In this document: positions 11,493 through 19,808 of the stretch, in pieces
How positions within the stretch are numbered: position 1 is the stretch's first letter
Layout: each line of letters starts with the position of its first letter
Source of the DNA: Cellulomonas citrea
GTDB lineage: Bacteria; Actinomycetota; Actinomycetes; Actinomycetales; Cellulomonadaceae
Assembly (NCBI RefSeq): GCF_009829685.1
Contig: NZ_VWSD01000016.1
Coordinates: 1-33,610, forward strand
DNA length: 33,610 nucleotides
Direction: 5' to 3'
Program-made: the position numbers and the translations under genes
Notes under the pieces: generated by a model
Seen by the model: only the letters and a program-made list of their open reading frames with translations
Told to the model about the DNA's origin: nothing
Database searches by the model: none

Positions 11493-11741
11493 TCAGCCGA
11501 GCCGTTCGCGCAGCGCCGCGTAGGTGGTGAGCAGGTCGCCGCGCAGCGCCACCTGGAGCTGCCCGTGCTGCCGCACCACGATCGCCACCTGCGGCAACGC
11601 GCCCAGACCGGCCTCGTCGGCGGCGCCGTCGTCGTGCAGCACGAACCGCAGCCGGGCCCAGCAGTGCGTGAGCTCGGCGACGTTCGCCGGACCGCCGACG
11701 AGGGGGAGCAGCCGGTCGGCGAGCTCGTCGGCGTCGCTCAC
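11493..11741 (-). CDS. Free-standing PTS EIIB domain (glucose/beta-glucoside family)
   Basis: This 82-residue protein is a single EIIB domain. LLPLVGGPANVAELTHCWAR contains the phospho-acceptor Cys27 in the family pattern HC-x-x-RLRF, and a VRQHGQLQVALRG strand comes later. It matches the N-terminal domain of the locus's own EIIBCA (HCATRLRF), but it has no EIIC or EIIA. Its GTG start overlaps the TGA of the antiterminator gene by 4 bp (GTGA), implying coupled translation. Because the permease already has its own EIIB, this copy may pass phosphate to or from the PRDs of BglG, or serve an EIIC elsewhere. Both roles are inference. Confidence 0.88.
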   Translation of the reverse strand: MSDADELADRLLPLVGGPANVAELTHCWARLRFVLHDDGAADEAGLGALPQVAIVVRQHGQLQVALRGDLLTTYAALRERLG

Positions 11742-12589
11742 CGGCTGGCCGCCCGTGGGGTGGTCAGCCGGTACACGTGCAACGTGAGGTAGAGCAGCTC
11801 CTCACCGGTGAGGGTCCAGCCGTAGCGTTCGCCGAGCAGCCTGGCGACGTCCTGCGCGCAGGCGAACTCCCGTGGCCGGGCCGCCCGGACCGCGTCGTGC
11901 AGCTCGTCGGCCGTCCCGGAGAGCAGACCGCCGTGCCGCTCCCGCAGGAACAGGTAGCGCAGGTGGGTGACGAACCGGGCCACCGCGACCGACTCGGCGT
12001 CGATGTCCACCTCGAACTGCGAGCGGATGAGGGCGAGCACCTCGCCGAGCACCTCGGTCATCCGGACGGTCGCGTCCAGGTCCTGGCCGAACTGGGCGTT
12101 GACGAAGTGCAGCGCCAGCGGGACCGCCTCGACGTCGGGGAGCACCACGCCGGTGCGCTGCGCGATGAGGCCGAGCGCCTCCCGGCTGAAGTCGACCTCG
12201 GCCGGGTACAGGTACTGCACCTCCCAGCGCAGCGGGTACTCGATGGGCGCCGACCCCTCGCGGACCCGGCGCAGCGCAAAGCTCACGTGGTCGGCCAGCG
12301 GGACGAGCACGTGGTCGGCGACCTGCGGCCCGAGCCGTTCGCGCGCCGCGCGCAGGATCTCCTCGGTCACCTCGATGTCGGCGATCGGGATCTCCTCGAT
12401 GAACGCCGCGAGCTTCTCGGCGCTCTGCGTCTGGGAGGACACGACGAACCGCTTCTCGACGAGCCCCTCGTCGACGGGGGTGCCGGGGGTCACCTGGAAG
12501 CCCAGTCCGCGGCCCAGCAGGACGAGCTCGGCGTCGCGGTCGTCGACGGCGAGCACGACGTTGTTGTTGAAGACCTTGCGGACCTTCAC
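11738..12589 (-). CDS. licT: BglG/LicT family transcription antiterminator
   Basis: This 283-residue protein has an N-terminal RNA-binding CAT domain (about 1-55: MKVRKVFNNNVVLAV, then LLGRGLGFQ and VEKRFV). Two PTS regulation domains follow. All four phosphorylatable histidines are in place: His101 (ADHVSFAL) and His161 (ALHFVNAQF) in PRD1, and His209 (THLRYLF) and His271 (LTLHVYRL) in PRD2. Phosphorylation by HPr and EII sets dimerisation, and the active dimer binds RAT hairpins and prevents terminator formation. Two RATs are visible in this window, before bglF and before ptsH. GTG 12589 follows a strong AGGAGGAGGGGC. It is the third gene of the beta-glucoside operon. Confidence 0.94.
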   Translation of the reverse strand: MKVRKVFNNNVVLAVDDRDAELVLLGRGLGFQVTPGTPVDEGLVEKRFVVSSQTQSAEKLAAFIEEIPIADIEVTEEILRAARERLGPQVADHVLVPLADHVSFALRRVREGSAPIEYPLRWEVQYLYPAEVDFSREALGLIAQRTGVVLPDVEAVPLALHFVNAQFGQDLDATVRMTEVLGEVLALIRSQFEVDIDAESVAVARFVTHLRYLFLRERHGGLLSGTADELHDAVRAARPREFACAQDVARLLGERYGWTLTGEELLYLTLHVYRLTTPRAASR

Positions 12590-12677: not shown

Positions 12678-16045
<3,368 letters not shown>

Positions 16046-16100: not shown

Positions 16101-16164
16101 AAAAAAGACCCAAGCTCACGGACGACGCCCACCACAGATGGACCAGTCGTCGGAGCTCGGGTCT
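16101..16164 (-). terminator. Intrinsic terminator in the bglF leader
   Basis: On the minus strand AGACCCGAGCTC (16164-16153) pairs with GAGCTTGGGTCT (16117-16106) over 12 bp with one G-U pair. A further GACGAC/GTCGTC stem lies inside, and a run of U follows (16106-16101). Its first 5 nt overlap the RAT, so the two structures are mutually exclusive, as in classical BglG/LicT attenuation. Confidence 0.9.
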
Positions 16165-16187
16165 TGCCTGAACCGCAGTAACAATCC
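16160..16187 (-). promoter_or_regulatory. RAT antiterminator element of bglF
   Basis: The 28-nt element begins GGATTGTTACTG and ends CAGGCAAGACC, matching the BglG/SacY-family ribonucleic antiterminator. Bound antiterminator would hold this hairpin and prevent the overlapping terminator from forming. Confidence 0.92.
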
Positions 16188-16224
16188 CAGAGTCACGCGG
16201 GGCGCGCGTAGGCGTCCCGCACGC

Positions 16225-16253
16225 AAACTAGCCCGTCGTCCAGGTCATGTAAA
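16225..16253 (-). promoter_or_regulatory. Promoter of the bglF operon
   Basis: On the minus strand TTTACA (16253-16248), a 17-bp spacer and TAGTTT (16230-16225) make a good sigma-70-like promoter. Start would be near 16218, about 30 nt before the RAT. Confidence 0.7.
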
Positions 16254-16268
16254 GCCCTCGCGGACGTC

Positions 16269-16274
16269 TAGCAT
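16269..16274 (+). promoter_or_regulatory. -10 hexamer for the histidine phosphatase gene
   Basis: TAGCAT ends 8 nt before GTG 16283, which has no Shine-Dalgarno. This suggests a leaderless or nearly leaderless start. The promoter abuts the divergent bglF promoter. Confidence 0.4.
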
Positions 16275-16282
16275 CGGTCGAC

Positions 16283-16978
16283 GTGTCCGCCCCTCGTCCC
16301 CTCACCTGGTACCTCGTCCGCCATGGCCGCACCCGGTACAACGACGAGGTCCGGCTGCAGGGCTGGTGCGACTCCGAGCTGACGCAGGAGGGCCTGGCCG
16401 GGGTGCGGGCGACGGCGCAGGCGTTGGCGGACGTCCCGTTCGTCTCGGCGTGGACCAGCCCGTCGGGCCGTGCGGCCGCCACGGCCGCCGAGATCCTGCA
16501 GTTCCACCCCCAGGTGCCGCTCACCTCGGACGAGGACCTCATGGAGTTCAGCTTCGGCGACTACGAGGCGCGCCCCGAACCCGAGCTGTGGGCCGTCGTC
16601 GACCCGCAGACCCTGTTCACCGGCGTGCGCACCGGGCGCGGGCAGACGTTGCCGGGCGGGGAGCCGTCCGACGTCTACCTGCGGCGGGTGGGCCGGGCCT
16701 TCGCCCGGGTCGCGGCGGCGCACCCCGACGGCGGTGCGGTGCTCGTCGTCAGCCACGGCGTGACGCTGCTCACGCATCTGACCCAGCAGGGCCTCGAACC
16801 GCCGACCTCGCTGCCGAACGCCAGCGTCACCGTGCTGACCAGCGGCGACGGCGGTCTTGAGCTGGTGCGCTTCGGCTGGGACCCGTCGGGTCGGGCGGTG
16901 CCGGGGCAGCCGCTCGCGCACGGCACGCTCGGCCGCCCGGACGGTCAGACCGAGCCCGCGGGGCCGGGCGCGGTTTGA
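16283..16978 (+). CDS. Histidine phosphatase family (phosphoglycerate mutase-like) protein
   Basis: This 231-residue protein carries the catalytic RHG motif at 13-15 (WYLVRHGRTRYN), followed by LQGWCDSELTQEGLAGVRAT. It has the acid Glu region EDLMEFSFGDYE and the second histidine in VLVVSHGVTLLTHL. The conserved core is typical of cofactor-independent phosphatases such as CobC/PhoE-like or fructose-2,6-bisphosphatase-like members. The substrate cannot be assigned. The last 35 residues are a Gly/Pro tail. It lies between the two RAT-controlled units, bglF (divergent) and ptsH (codirectional), so a phosphosugar role is possible. The ptsH -35 element overlaps its stop codon. Confidence 0.9.
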   Translation: MSAPRPLTWYLVRHGRTRYNDEVRLQGWCDSELTQEGLAGVRATAQALADVPFVSAWTSPSGRAAATAAEILQFHPQVPLTSDEDLMEFSFGDYEARPEPELWAVVDPQTLFTGVRTGRGQTLPGGEPSDVYLRRVGRAFARVAAAHPDGGAVLVVSHGVTLLTHLTQQGLEPPTSLPNASVTVLTSGDGGLELVRFGWDPSGRAVPGQPLAHGTLGRPDGQTEPAGPGAV

Positions 16979-17003
16979 CGCCACCGGCACCGGCGGGTAG
17001 AAC
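16975..17003 (+). promoter_or_regulatory. Promoter of ptsH
   Basis: TTGACG (16975-16980), a 17-bp spacer and TAGAAC (16998-17003) form a clear promoter. Start would be near 17010, immediately before the RAT, so all transcripts from it must pass the terminator. Confidence 0.7.
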
Positions 17004-17012
17004 CGGGGTGCA

Positions 17013-17040
17013 GGATTGTGACCACCTGGTGGGCAAGACC
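17013..17040 (+). promoter_or_regulatory. RAT antiterminator element of ptsH
   Basis: The 28-nt element begins GGATTGTGACCAC and ends GTGGGCAAGACC. It has the same length and the same conserved GGATTGT and GGCAAGACC blocks as the bglF element. The middle has changed on both sides (TACTG/CAG versus GACCAC/GTGG) in ways that keep a stem. Confidence 0.9.
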
Positions 17041-17066
17041 TGGCGCTGTGTGCGCCAGGTCTTTTT
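17036..17066 (+). terminator. Intrinsic terminator in the ptsH leader
   Basis: AGACCTGGCG (17036-17045) and CGCCAGGTCT (17053-17062) form a perfect 10-bp stem with a 7-nt loop, followed by UUUUU. Its first 5 nt overlap the RAT, so the two structures exclude each other. Confidence 0.93.
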
Positions 17067-17096: not shown

Positions 17097-17366
17097 ATGC
17101 CCGAACGTGTCGCGACCATCGGCTCCGCCAGCGGGCTGCACGCCCGTCCGGCGGCGCTGTTCACCCAGGCTGCTGCGGCGGCCGGCCACGAGGTCTCGAT
17201 CGCACGCGAGGGAGGACCGGCGGTCCCGGCCGCCAGCGTCCTCATGGTGATGTCGCTCGGGCTCAAGCAGGGCGACCAGGTGGTGCTCTCGGCGCCCGAC
17301 GAGGCCGCCGGAGCGGCCCTGGCCGACCTGGCCGACCTGCTCGCCCGGGACCTCGACGCGCAGTAG
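17097..17366 (+). CDS. ptsH: PTS phosphocarrier protein HPr
   Basis: This 89-residue protein has the normal HPr size and fold. The EI-phosphorylated His15 sits in GLHARPAALF. Ser47 in PAASVLMVMSLGLKQGD occupies the regulatory Ser46 position of other HPr proteins. It passes phosphate from enzyme I to the EIIA domains and to PRDs of the antiterminator. ATG 17097 has a GAGGAGAGG site. No ptsI follows; the next gene encodes a membrane protein. The leader carries RAT plus terminator, so expression is probably controlled by the BglG-type protein encoded at 11738-12589. Enzyme I must come from elsewhere. Confidence 0.96.
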   Translation: MPERVATIGSASGLHARPAALFTQAAAAAGHEVSIAREGGPAVPAASVLMVMSLGLKQGDQVVLSAPDEAAGAALADLADLLARDLDAQ

Positions 17367-17891: not shown

Positions 17892-19808
17892 TCAGACGTA
17901 CAGCGGCGTGAGCCGGTCGTACTCCTCGACGTCCGCATCGGCCAGGCAGGCCTCGATGATCGAGCGGCCCAGCGGGTCCAGGTCGGGCGTGAGGTACTGC
18001 ACGAGCTCGCTCTTGAAGAAGTCGGTGAGGATGCTCGCGCCCGCGTCGTAGGCGGCCACCCCGACCTGCTCCTGGTACTCCGGCTGCAGCAGCGTCGGGC
18101 GGATCTGCTGCCCGTCGAGCTTGATCTCGGTGGGCCGGTAGCCGAACAGTGCGCAGCGTGCCGGCACGAGCTGGTCGCGGTAGATCCGGCCGCCACCGCG
18201 GCGGGCCAGGTACTCCCGGGTGAGCCACTCGGCGGCGAAACCGACCTTGTAGGCGCCGATGTGCTGGTTGGGCACGAGCACGTACCGGGTGCGGTTGTGC
18301 GCCACGATCTGGTCGAGCGCGAGGTTGGCGCCGCCGACCTTGGTGCCGGTGGAGAACGGCCAGAACGAGCCGACGCCCTCGGACACCAGACCGCCCTTGG
18401 CGATCTTCGCCTTGTCGGACTTCGACTCGCCGATCGACGGGTTCTTGTCACCGCGCGGTGCGATGAGCCGCCACAGCCACGCCAACGACGGCGGGATGAC
18501 GTGGAACATGCCCATGATCCCGTAGGTCGGGTTCTCCTTGGTGCACAGCGGCATCCGGACGCCGAAGGTGCGCACGTCGACCTCGCGCGGCTCGGAGACC
18601 ACGTGCCGGATGAACCGGCGGGGGATCACCACGCGCGGGTTCGGGCACGGCTTGCCGTTGGAGTCCAGGGTGTGGTCCCACGGCAGGCAGGTGGAGTCGG
18701 GCTGGCCGTTGAGCGAGAGGAACAGCAGCGGCTCCGGCGGGTTGATGACGGCCCGCTCGAAGGCCGGGTCGGCCCCGTACTCGGTGAGGCCGTCGACCCG
18801 CACGAACCAGCCGGCCTCGGCGTCCGTGACGACCAGGCGGCCTCGGTTGCGCTGCACCGACGGGTGGCACAGCGTCATGTCGTCGGTCACCGGCGACAGC
18901 GAGCAGACCTCGCCGAGGGTGATGTGGTACGGCTCGTCGCGCACCACGTTGACGCCCACGAGGATGCGGCCGTCGTCCTCGCGCCGGATCTCCTGGCACA
19001 TCTCGGACTTGCCGCCGCCGGAGGCGCCCTCGTGCATGATCACGGTGTCGTTCTCGTACGGCGTCGTGACCCGCACGCTCGAGGCGTGCAGCGTCAGCCA
19101 GCTCTCCTGCTGCCCGATGTCGAGCAGCACCGAGAAGACGCCCTTCTTGGCGCTCGGGCCGGGGTAGACGTTGTAGGCGAACACCTCGTGCAGCGTCTTC
19201 GTGCGGTTGTGCACGACGACCTGGCGGCCCTCGAAGTGCGTCTGCCGGAACGGCGGGGCCAGGTAGAGGATCGAGCGTGGTGTGAACGGCCCGATCTCGT
19301 CGAACGTCACCCAGCCCTGCAGGTCGACGAGCGTGAGGGCGAAGAACGCCGCGTTGAGCGGCACGATCGCCAGCGACGGGTAGCCGTGGTCCGGGCCGCC
19401 CGCCTTGAACGGCACGACGACGAGCTCCTGGGTGCCCAGCCACGCGAGCGTCTCTCGGCGCACGGGCTCGAACGGGGCGCCGTAGACGTCGGCGTAGCGG
19501 GGCTTGTCCGTCGGCAGGTCGTCGGCGATACGCATGCAGTCGGGGTCGCGCCGGCGCATGTAGTCCTCGGGGTAGTTCACCGCGACGCCGTTCTTGCAGC
19601 GCGTGACGACGGCCTCGGTGACCGGGGAGCCGTTGACGTCGTAGGTGACCTCGAAGGTGGGCCCGCCGTCGGGTCCGAGGGCCAGTGCGTACAGCTCGGC
19701 CCGGGACGTCGGGACGACGAGGCGAGGACTCGAGGACAGCACCTCGGCGACCTCGGGGGCGAGGGTGAGACGGCCGAGGATGTCGGCTGCGGTCGTGGGC
19801 GAGCTCAC
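17892..19808 (-). CDS. DUF4914 family protein with HprK/PEPCK-like P-loop
   Basis: This 638-residue soluble protein matches DUF4914, a family without an assigned activity. The N-terminal third has CKNGVAVNYPEDYMRRRDPD and GGPDHGYPSLAIVPLNAAFF. Near the middle, MHEGASGGGKSEMCQEIRR (loop about 261-269) forms a nucleotide-binding P-loop preceded by a hydrophobic strand; its GKSE ending resembles HPr kinase and the PEP carboxykinase fold. Later blocks include LVVTDAEAGWFVRVDGL, RFIRHVVSEPREVDVRTFG, KENPTYGIMGMFHVIPPS and VPNQHIGAYKVGFAAEWLTR. GTG 19808 has AAGGAGACCACCC upstream. The nearby HPr gene makes a kinase-like role tempting, but that is speculative. It does not carry canonical PEPCK motifs. 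Confidence 0.88.
   Translation of the reverse strand: MSSPTTAADILGRLTLAPEVAEVLSSSPRLVVPTSRAELYALALGPDGGPTFEVTYDVNGSPVTEAVVTRCKNGVAVNYPEDYMRRRDPDCMRIADDLPTDKPRYADVYGAPFEPVRRETLAWLGTQELVVVPFKAGGPDHGYPSLAIVPLNAAFFALTLVDLQGWVTFDEIGPFTPRSILYLAPPFRQTHFEGRQVVVHNRTKTLHEVFAYNVYPGPSAKKGVFSVLLDIGQQESWLTLHASSVRVTTPYENDTVIMHEGASGGGKSEMCQEIRREDDGRILVGVNVVRDEPYHITLGEVCSLSPVTDDMTLCHPSVQRNRGRLVVTDAEAGWFVRVDGLTEYGADPAFERAVINPPEPLLFLSLNGQPDSTCLPWDHTLDSNGKPCPNPRVVIPRRFIRHVVSEPREVDVRTFGVRMPLCTKENPTYGIMGMFHVIPPSLAWLWRLIAPRGDKNPSIGESKSDKAKIAKGGLVSEGVGSFWPFSTGTKVGGANLALDQIVAHNRTRYVLVPNQHIGAYKVGFAAEWLTREYLARRGGGRIYRDQLVPARCALFGYRPTEIKLDGQQIRPTLLQPEYQEQVGVAAYDAGASILTDFFKSELVQYLTPDLDPLGRSIIEACLADADVEEYDRLTPLYV

Follow-up and report, generated by a model that had tools for sequence, protein, structure and literature searches.

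The DNA analysed here (the window, 33,610 nucleotides) spans a complete contig of genome G000, whose assembly comprises 3.4 Mb in 434 contigs. It harbors bglF, bglA and licT on one strand and an HPr gene, ptsH2, on the other; a histidine-phosphatase-family gene lies between the two leaders (Table 1). The licT product carries a CAT domain for RNA binding together with two PRD stretches; among solved structures it comes closest to LicT and to an antiterminator of the BglG family. When it was aligned with 1tlv and 1h99, all four conserved PRD histidines were present, the relevant ones being 100, 159, 207 and 269. A second BglG-type gene elsewhere, which the first-pass annotation had considered as a possible sole reader of the ptsH leader, was not seen: no further CAT_RBD gene was found in this assembly, which is rated 99.9% complete and in whose gaps a gene might be lost.

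Table 1. Genes and leader elements around bglF and ptsH2 (positions in the window).
Feature	Position	Strand	Remarks
Stand-alone EIIB-domain frame, 81-82 aa	11493-11741	(-)	PF00367; overlaps the licT end by 4 bases
licT, CAT-PRD-PRD antiterminator	11738..12589	(-)	sole CAT_RBD gene detected in the genome
bglA, glycoside hydrolase family 1	12678..14090	(-)	Pfam PF00232
bglF, beta-glucoside-type EII (EIIB, EIIC, EIIA)	14162..16045	(-)	Pfam PF00367, PF02378, PF00358; GTG start chosen by eye
bglF leader terminator	16101..16165	(-)	stem starts with the RAT's AAGACC; T run 16106-16101; dG -40.8
RAT, bglF leader	16160..16187	(-)	GGATTGT-TACTGCGGTTCA-GGCAAGACC; exact pattern match
bglF promoter-like sequence, TTTACA-N17-TAGTTT	16225..16253	(-)	37 nt before the RAT; 9/200 shuffles as good, weak alone
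Histidine-phosphatase-family gene between the leaders	16283..16978	(+)	Pfam PF00300; stop codon overlaps the ptsH -35
ptsH promoter-like sequence, TTGACG-N17-TAGAAC	16975..17003	(+)	ends 9 nt before the RAT; 0/200 letter shuffles as good
RAT, ptsH leader	17013..17040	(+)	GGATTGT-GACCACCTGGTG-GGCAAGACC; exact pattern match
ptsH terminator	17035..17066	(+)	perfect 12-pair stem 17035-17063, T tail to 17066; overlaps the RAT by AAGACC
ptsH2, accessory HPr (probable role)	17097..17366	(+)	PTS-HPr domain, 73.5 bits; GLHARPA present; His15 and Ser46 regions kept
DUF4914 protein, full-length	17892-19808	(-)	1040 bits; downstream of ptsH2, opposite strand

The first-pass annotation had described two 28-nt RATs sharing GGATTGT. 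Their positions were found to be exact, and both sites are perfect 28-mers of the form GGATTGT-N12-GGCAAGACC. With up to two mismatches allowed, they were the only matches in the window (mean of 100 dinucleotide shuffles, 0.01), and genome-wide no other exact match was found, the next best site having two mismatches. Both contain GG.TTGT.AC...GGCAARACC, which we take to be the LicT-class RAT core, together with a pairable upper stem. The middles of the RATs, said to differ on both arms and yet to keep a stem, indeed do so: from CUG/CAG to CCA/UGG two pairs are changed on both sides, one C-G pair is constant and pairing is retained. In the Rfam family bglG-cis-reg (RF03530), which is one library's model and not a biological definition, the bglF leader scored 28.7 bits against a gathering score of 80 bits and the ptsH leader gave no match up to E 1.

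Folding of both leaders, as proposed earlier, showed in each of them an intrinsic terminator whose 5' arm overlaps the 3' arm of the RAT. The RAT alone (28 nt) folded no better than shuffles (z -0.06). The free fold of the bglF RAT differed from the RAT hairpin. Such behaviour of the bare RAT is expected if a protein must hold the hairpin. The overlap, previously given as 5 nt, amounts to 5-6 nt, the common stretch AAGACC being the final 6 nt of the RAT. The ptsH terminator (-24.1 kcal/mol) reached a z of -6.9 versus letter shuffles. The bglF leader follows the same plan with a longer terminator, and the two terminators differ in sequence and length. In this way the bglF-like arrangement of promoter, RAT and overlapping perfect terminator claimed for ptsH was recovered; a stricter generic promoter scan found no promoter at the ptsH leader. 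Since only about 30 nt separate the ptsH terminator from the start codon, there is little room for a second ptsH promoter. Among the RAT-HPr leaders compared, near-copies included, AAGACC was folded into the terminator in 24 of 26. The other two lacked a clean terminator: in G034 there is no run of four T (tail TTTCTT), and in G035 an early T run was taken by the script. In 24 of 27 RAT-HPr leaders the promoter search settled on a TTGAC hexamer; the quality of the second hexamer varied.

A search of related genomes for RATs before ptsH, suggested by the first-pass annotation, was carried out on 60 genomes of the same genus. RAT-pattern sites were detected in 18 of them and LicT in 19, while a reversed control pattern gave 2 sites in the 60 genomes. 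All 18 RAT-pattern genomes carry a RAT directly before an HPr gene (20 loci in total). This arrangement occurred in 18 of the 19 genomes with LicT and in none of the 41 without it (Fisher p 2e-14, uncorrected for kinship). The remaining LicT genome (G027) has no RAT by pattern; its genes are ordered bglF-bglA-licT-ptsH in one direction, and by eye its leader resembles a variant RAT with a terminator. A single CAT_RBD (LicT) gene together with a ptsH RAT and another RAT was found in five of the 60 genomes (G000, G012, G014, G017 and G032), the G012 assembly being 89% complete with 6% contamination. Thirteen of the 19 LicT genomes possess two to five such genes each, so that the pairing of LicT and RAT is tentative there.

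The retention of pairing seen within the window extends to the relatives. Across a set of 16 different ptsH RATs, which includes two of clostridial-type loci, the three pairs of the upper stem were formed in 48 of 48 cells (shuffle mean 42.8, none of 20000 shuffles reaching this value). For 34 distinct RATs, entered by hand with copies removed, 100 of 102 cells were paired, compared to a mean of 86.6 in shuffles that ignore kinship, and again 0/20000 shuffles reached the value. This count covers neither the other-side RAT of G041b nor the RATs of G071, G139 and G153; in G139 and G153 the upper stem is, by eye, limited to two pairs and capped by a GAAA loop. Position 3 of the RAT (A or G) was also considered as a code by which the two RATs within a locus might be matched. 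The code looked perfect in the first loci examined and failed in G009b, G028b and Actinotalea soli.

The gene contents of the loci were compared by tblastn annotation. The module is divergent, with licT, bglA and bglF on one side and ptsH on the other, and a phosphatase-family gene sometimes between them. A divergent RAT was present in 17 of the 20 genus loci (fetched stretch or window) as well as in every one of the four Jonesia, Actinotalea (two) and Demequina loci. The units behind the RAT comprised ptsH, ptsH-ptsI, ptsH-ptsI-bglA (G037, G043), ptsH-bglA (G035, G038) and bglA alone, the latter in G009 and G028, where no HPr match was found behind the RAT (L080 8243-8269 and L085 8685-8711). 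This series of operons including bglA is the best functional hint, and it points to a role in beta-glucoside use for the unit that follows the second RAT. The statement of the first-pass annotation that ptsH is controlled without ptsI holds for our locus, but this locus is an exception: ptsI follows RAT-ptsH in 14 of 18 genomes, is lacking in G000 and G035, and cannot be judged in G012 and G041, whose contigs end too soon. Most simply, the missing ptsI at our locus is a local loss. The histidine-phosphatase-family gene was also seen between the leaders in G006, G011, G012, G043, Jonesia and Actinotalea soli.

Beyond the genus, 149 genomes of the order were scanned, of which 22 contained a RAT-like site, some of them chance occurrences by their flanks. 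Among the 30 loci listed, a RAT was located directly before HPr in G000, G139, G146, G153 and G161, and with a longer hairpin in G071, which gives at least six of 149 genomes (family codes f1, f3, f9 and f12). The RAT letters of G146 and G161 are identical to those of the Jonesia quinghaiensis and Demequina pelophila loci. The RAT-HPr layout was likewise found in Jonesia, Actinotalea and Demequina and in two further family codes. A scan of named genomes returned at least 120 stretches; 13 of 120 were kept, and 11 of these read as RAT-HPr loci (L176 and L180 do not), which sets a lower bound and does not represent a rate. The data confirm that the arrangement noticed in the window is real and conserved, and the RAT-ptsH arrangement is probably functional.

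The designation of the ptsH product as a general phosphocarrier could not be upheld. The genome possesses two HPr genes, the other of which lies directly behind fruA on contig C382, a contig without any RAT-pattern site. At the end of this contig (L105, 1-273, minus strand) the fruA-linked HPr gene is followed by what looks by eye like the first approximately 50 codons of ptsI, and then by unrelated permease-like sequence of the opposite strand. No EI N-terminal domain and no other EI were found in the assembly; the only EI-C-like match was a 941-aa frame on C39, which we guess to be pyruvate phosphate dikinase. The missing EI N-terminal domain and the cut ptsI on C382 together indicate that the EI of this genome is broken or was cut by the assembly. 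A further HPr match besides the RAT-HPr was obtained in 18 of 18 RAT-HPr genomes, and it was read as full length in our genome and in seven others. It is thus most reasonable to regard the RAT-HPr as an accessory HPr tied to a pathway. The notion that it is the sole HPr in G001, G009, G017, G028, G038, G041 and G058 was rejected, as all seven encode a full-length 89-aa HPr with no RAT-pattern site beside it. For this reason, a closed loop without bypass was dropped.

Taken together, the single licT gene, the conserved RATs, their covariation and the operon contents suggest that one beta-glucoside antiterminator most likely controls the permease, the beta-glucosidase and HPr together. Shared control by one BglG-type protein, as initially proposed, is strongly supported by the lone CAT_RBD gene and by the co-occurrence of LicT and RAT-ptsH in the genus. 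On the basis of the observed anatomy, conservation, covariation and single antiterminator, we regard it as highly probable that ptsH2 encodes the accessory HPr of the beta-glucoside PTS and belongs to one LicT regulon with the divergent bglF-bglA-licT unit, both leaders being opened by LicT.

In the primary work on LicT, phosphorylation by the EII reportedly inhibits the antiterminator and HPr~P activates it. For PRD antiterminators in general, inhibition through phosphorylation by the cognate EII and activation by HPr~P are stated in passages of PMC6148471 and PMC4706839. From this we infer the binding of LicT, its inducer and the logic of phosphorylation as follows. Each leader would be transcribed from an unregulated promoter and transcription would stop by default at the terminator. 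A beta-glucoside would drain phosphate from BglF, so that LicT would lose its inhibitory PRD1 phosphate, and HPr~P would phosphorylate PRD2, upon which the LicT dimer could bind the RAT. LicT on the RAT would keep AAGACC out of the terminator and allow readthrough into bglF-bglA-licT and ptsH, in relatives also into ptsI and sometimes bglA. Permease, hydrolase and phosphocarrier would then be supplied in step with one another. Because LicT depends on HPr~P for its licence, the circuit probably forms a positive loop, in which HPr2 would feed back on LicT and the other HPr might serve as the starter.

It is conceivable that LicT reads the ptsH RAT with little regulatory range, the terminator being leaky, HPr2 in effect constitutive and the leader a relic of a bgl operon leader. 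The absence of HPr behind such a RAT in L080 and L085 and the lack of ptsI in our locus do indicate that parts of the operon are dispensable. Nevertheless, we consider this explanation unlikely in view of the strength of the ptsH terminator and of a RAT and terminator that have stayed intact across divergent genera with compensatory changes. It could also be that the ptsH leader is read by an RNA-binding protein other than LicT, since ptsH RATs tend to differ from other RATs at position 8 (G in 9/16 versus 2/18) and at the fourth base from the end (G in 16/16 versus 9/18). However, the paired core is nearly identical in both sets, and no other CAT_RBD gene was found in our genome or in four more that carry a ptsH RAT and another RAT, which makes such a protein very improbable. 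Finally, only the short length of the motif would speak for a likeness of the leaders by chance or by a recent, functionless duplication. This is hardly credible, as the expectation from window shuffles is negligible, all 18 RAT-pattern genomes carry a RAT-HPr, the stems covary and the window's terminators are not copies of each other in sequence or length.

In the preferred reading, joint control of both units by LicT, the locus extends known systems. The LicT/BglG-controlled beta-glucoside operons are represented by bglPH and bglGFB. Our locus resembles them in the RAT core, the overlapping terminator, the CAT-PRD-PRD protein and the genes for EII and a GH1 enzyme, but here a second RAT extends the regulon to a divergent ptsH(-ptsI-bglA) unit. 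The nearest precedent for the latter is the control of ptsGHI by GlcT. Such control by a GlcT-type PRD antiterminator was reportedly described by Stulke in 1997 for Bacillus subtilis. In the GlcT system ptsG follows the leader, and glucose is the signal to which the antiterminator responds. Both cases have in common a PRD antiterminator over an operon with ptsH and ptsI, whereas here a LicT-class RAT lies directly before ptsH, and the product concerned is an accessory HPr (or HPr together with EI). The GlcT-type layout with a leader before ptsG and with ptsH and ptsI downstream is absent from our locus, where the EII gene is divergent and has its own RAT. A ptsHI promoter downstream of ptsG is mentioned in a passage of PMC6148471. 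A RAT and terminator directly before ptsH also occur in L159 (uncultured Agathobaculum) and L224, where the order RAT-ptsH-licT-EII was read by eye; an antiterminator-like frame and then an EII-like frame (whole in L224), both likewise named by eye, lie downstream. In contrast to the two divergent units described here, the genes of these loci run in one direction behind one RAT. No published case of a ptsH preceded by a LicT-type RAT was recognised for Actinomycetota in the literature searched, which covers only a minority of the subscription journals.

As a rule, HPr and EI are regarded as PTS components that are shared and present at all times. At this locus a sugar-specific antiterminator, itself expected to need HPr~P, appears to gate a paralogue of HPr and, in many relatives, of EI. 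It would represent a compact, naturally occurring circuit with positive feedback, in which the separation of paralogous phosphorelays could be studied as a test case, and LicT-type switches are predicted before ptsH in relatives with RAT-HPr loci.

The paralogues were also compared in trees. RAT-linked (19 rows) and fru-linked EIs (15 rows) were split on one branch (97/99) in a tree of 34 rows, in which Jonesia and the f3 pair were long and from which one duplicate Jonesia row had been dropped. The HPr tree required two label changes between RAT-HPrs and other HPrs over 41 rows, compared to a shuffled mean of 13.2, with few firm inner branches. Residues 11, 20, 50 and 56 were among the best separators of RAT-HPrs and fru-type HPrs; Arg11 was present in 15 of 15 RAT-HPrs and in 0 of 24 fru-type HPrs, two licT-linked rows without RAT being left out. 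Residues 11, 20 and 50 lie near the His15 face. The EI split, the near-split of the HPrs and the location of the separating residues raise the tentative possibility, which we hold to be rather doubtful, of an insulated phosphate line: BglF and LicT might be served more readily by HPr2 and the EI paralogue than by the general HPr, and the LicT-gated circuit might then be self-sustaining (bistable) once induced.

A further type of RAT with a longer upper stem (of the CCCGC...GCGGG kind) was observed 2.1-2.5 kb from a LicT gene in 12 genomes (G001, G006, G009, G011, G017, G028, G035, G037, G038, G041, G049 and G058). In G017 the divergent RAT opposite ptsH is of this kind. This type probably marks a second PTS operon. 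EIIB pieces similar to the stand-alone frame of the window adjoin licT in G012, G035, G037, G038 and G043. One possibility is that the stand-alone EIIB acts as a dedicated phosphodonor or acceptor for LicT.
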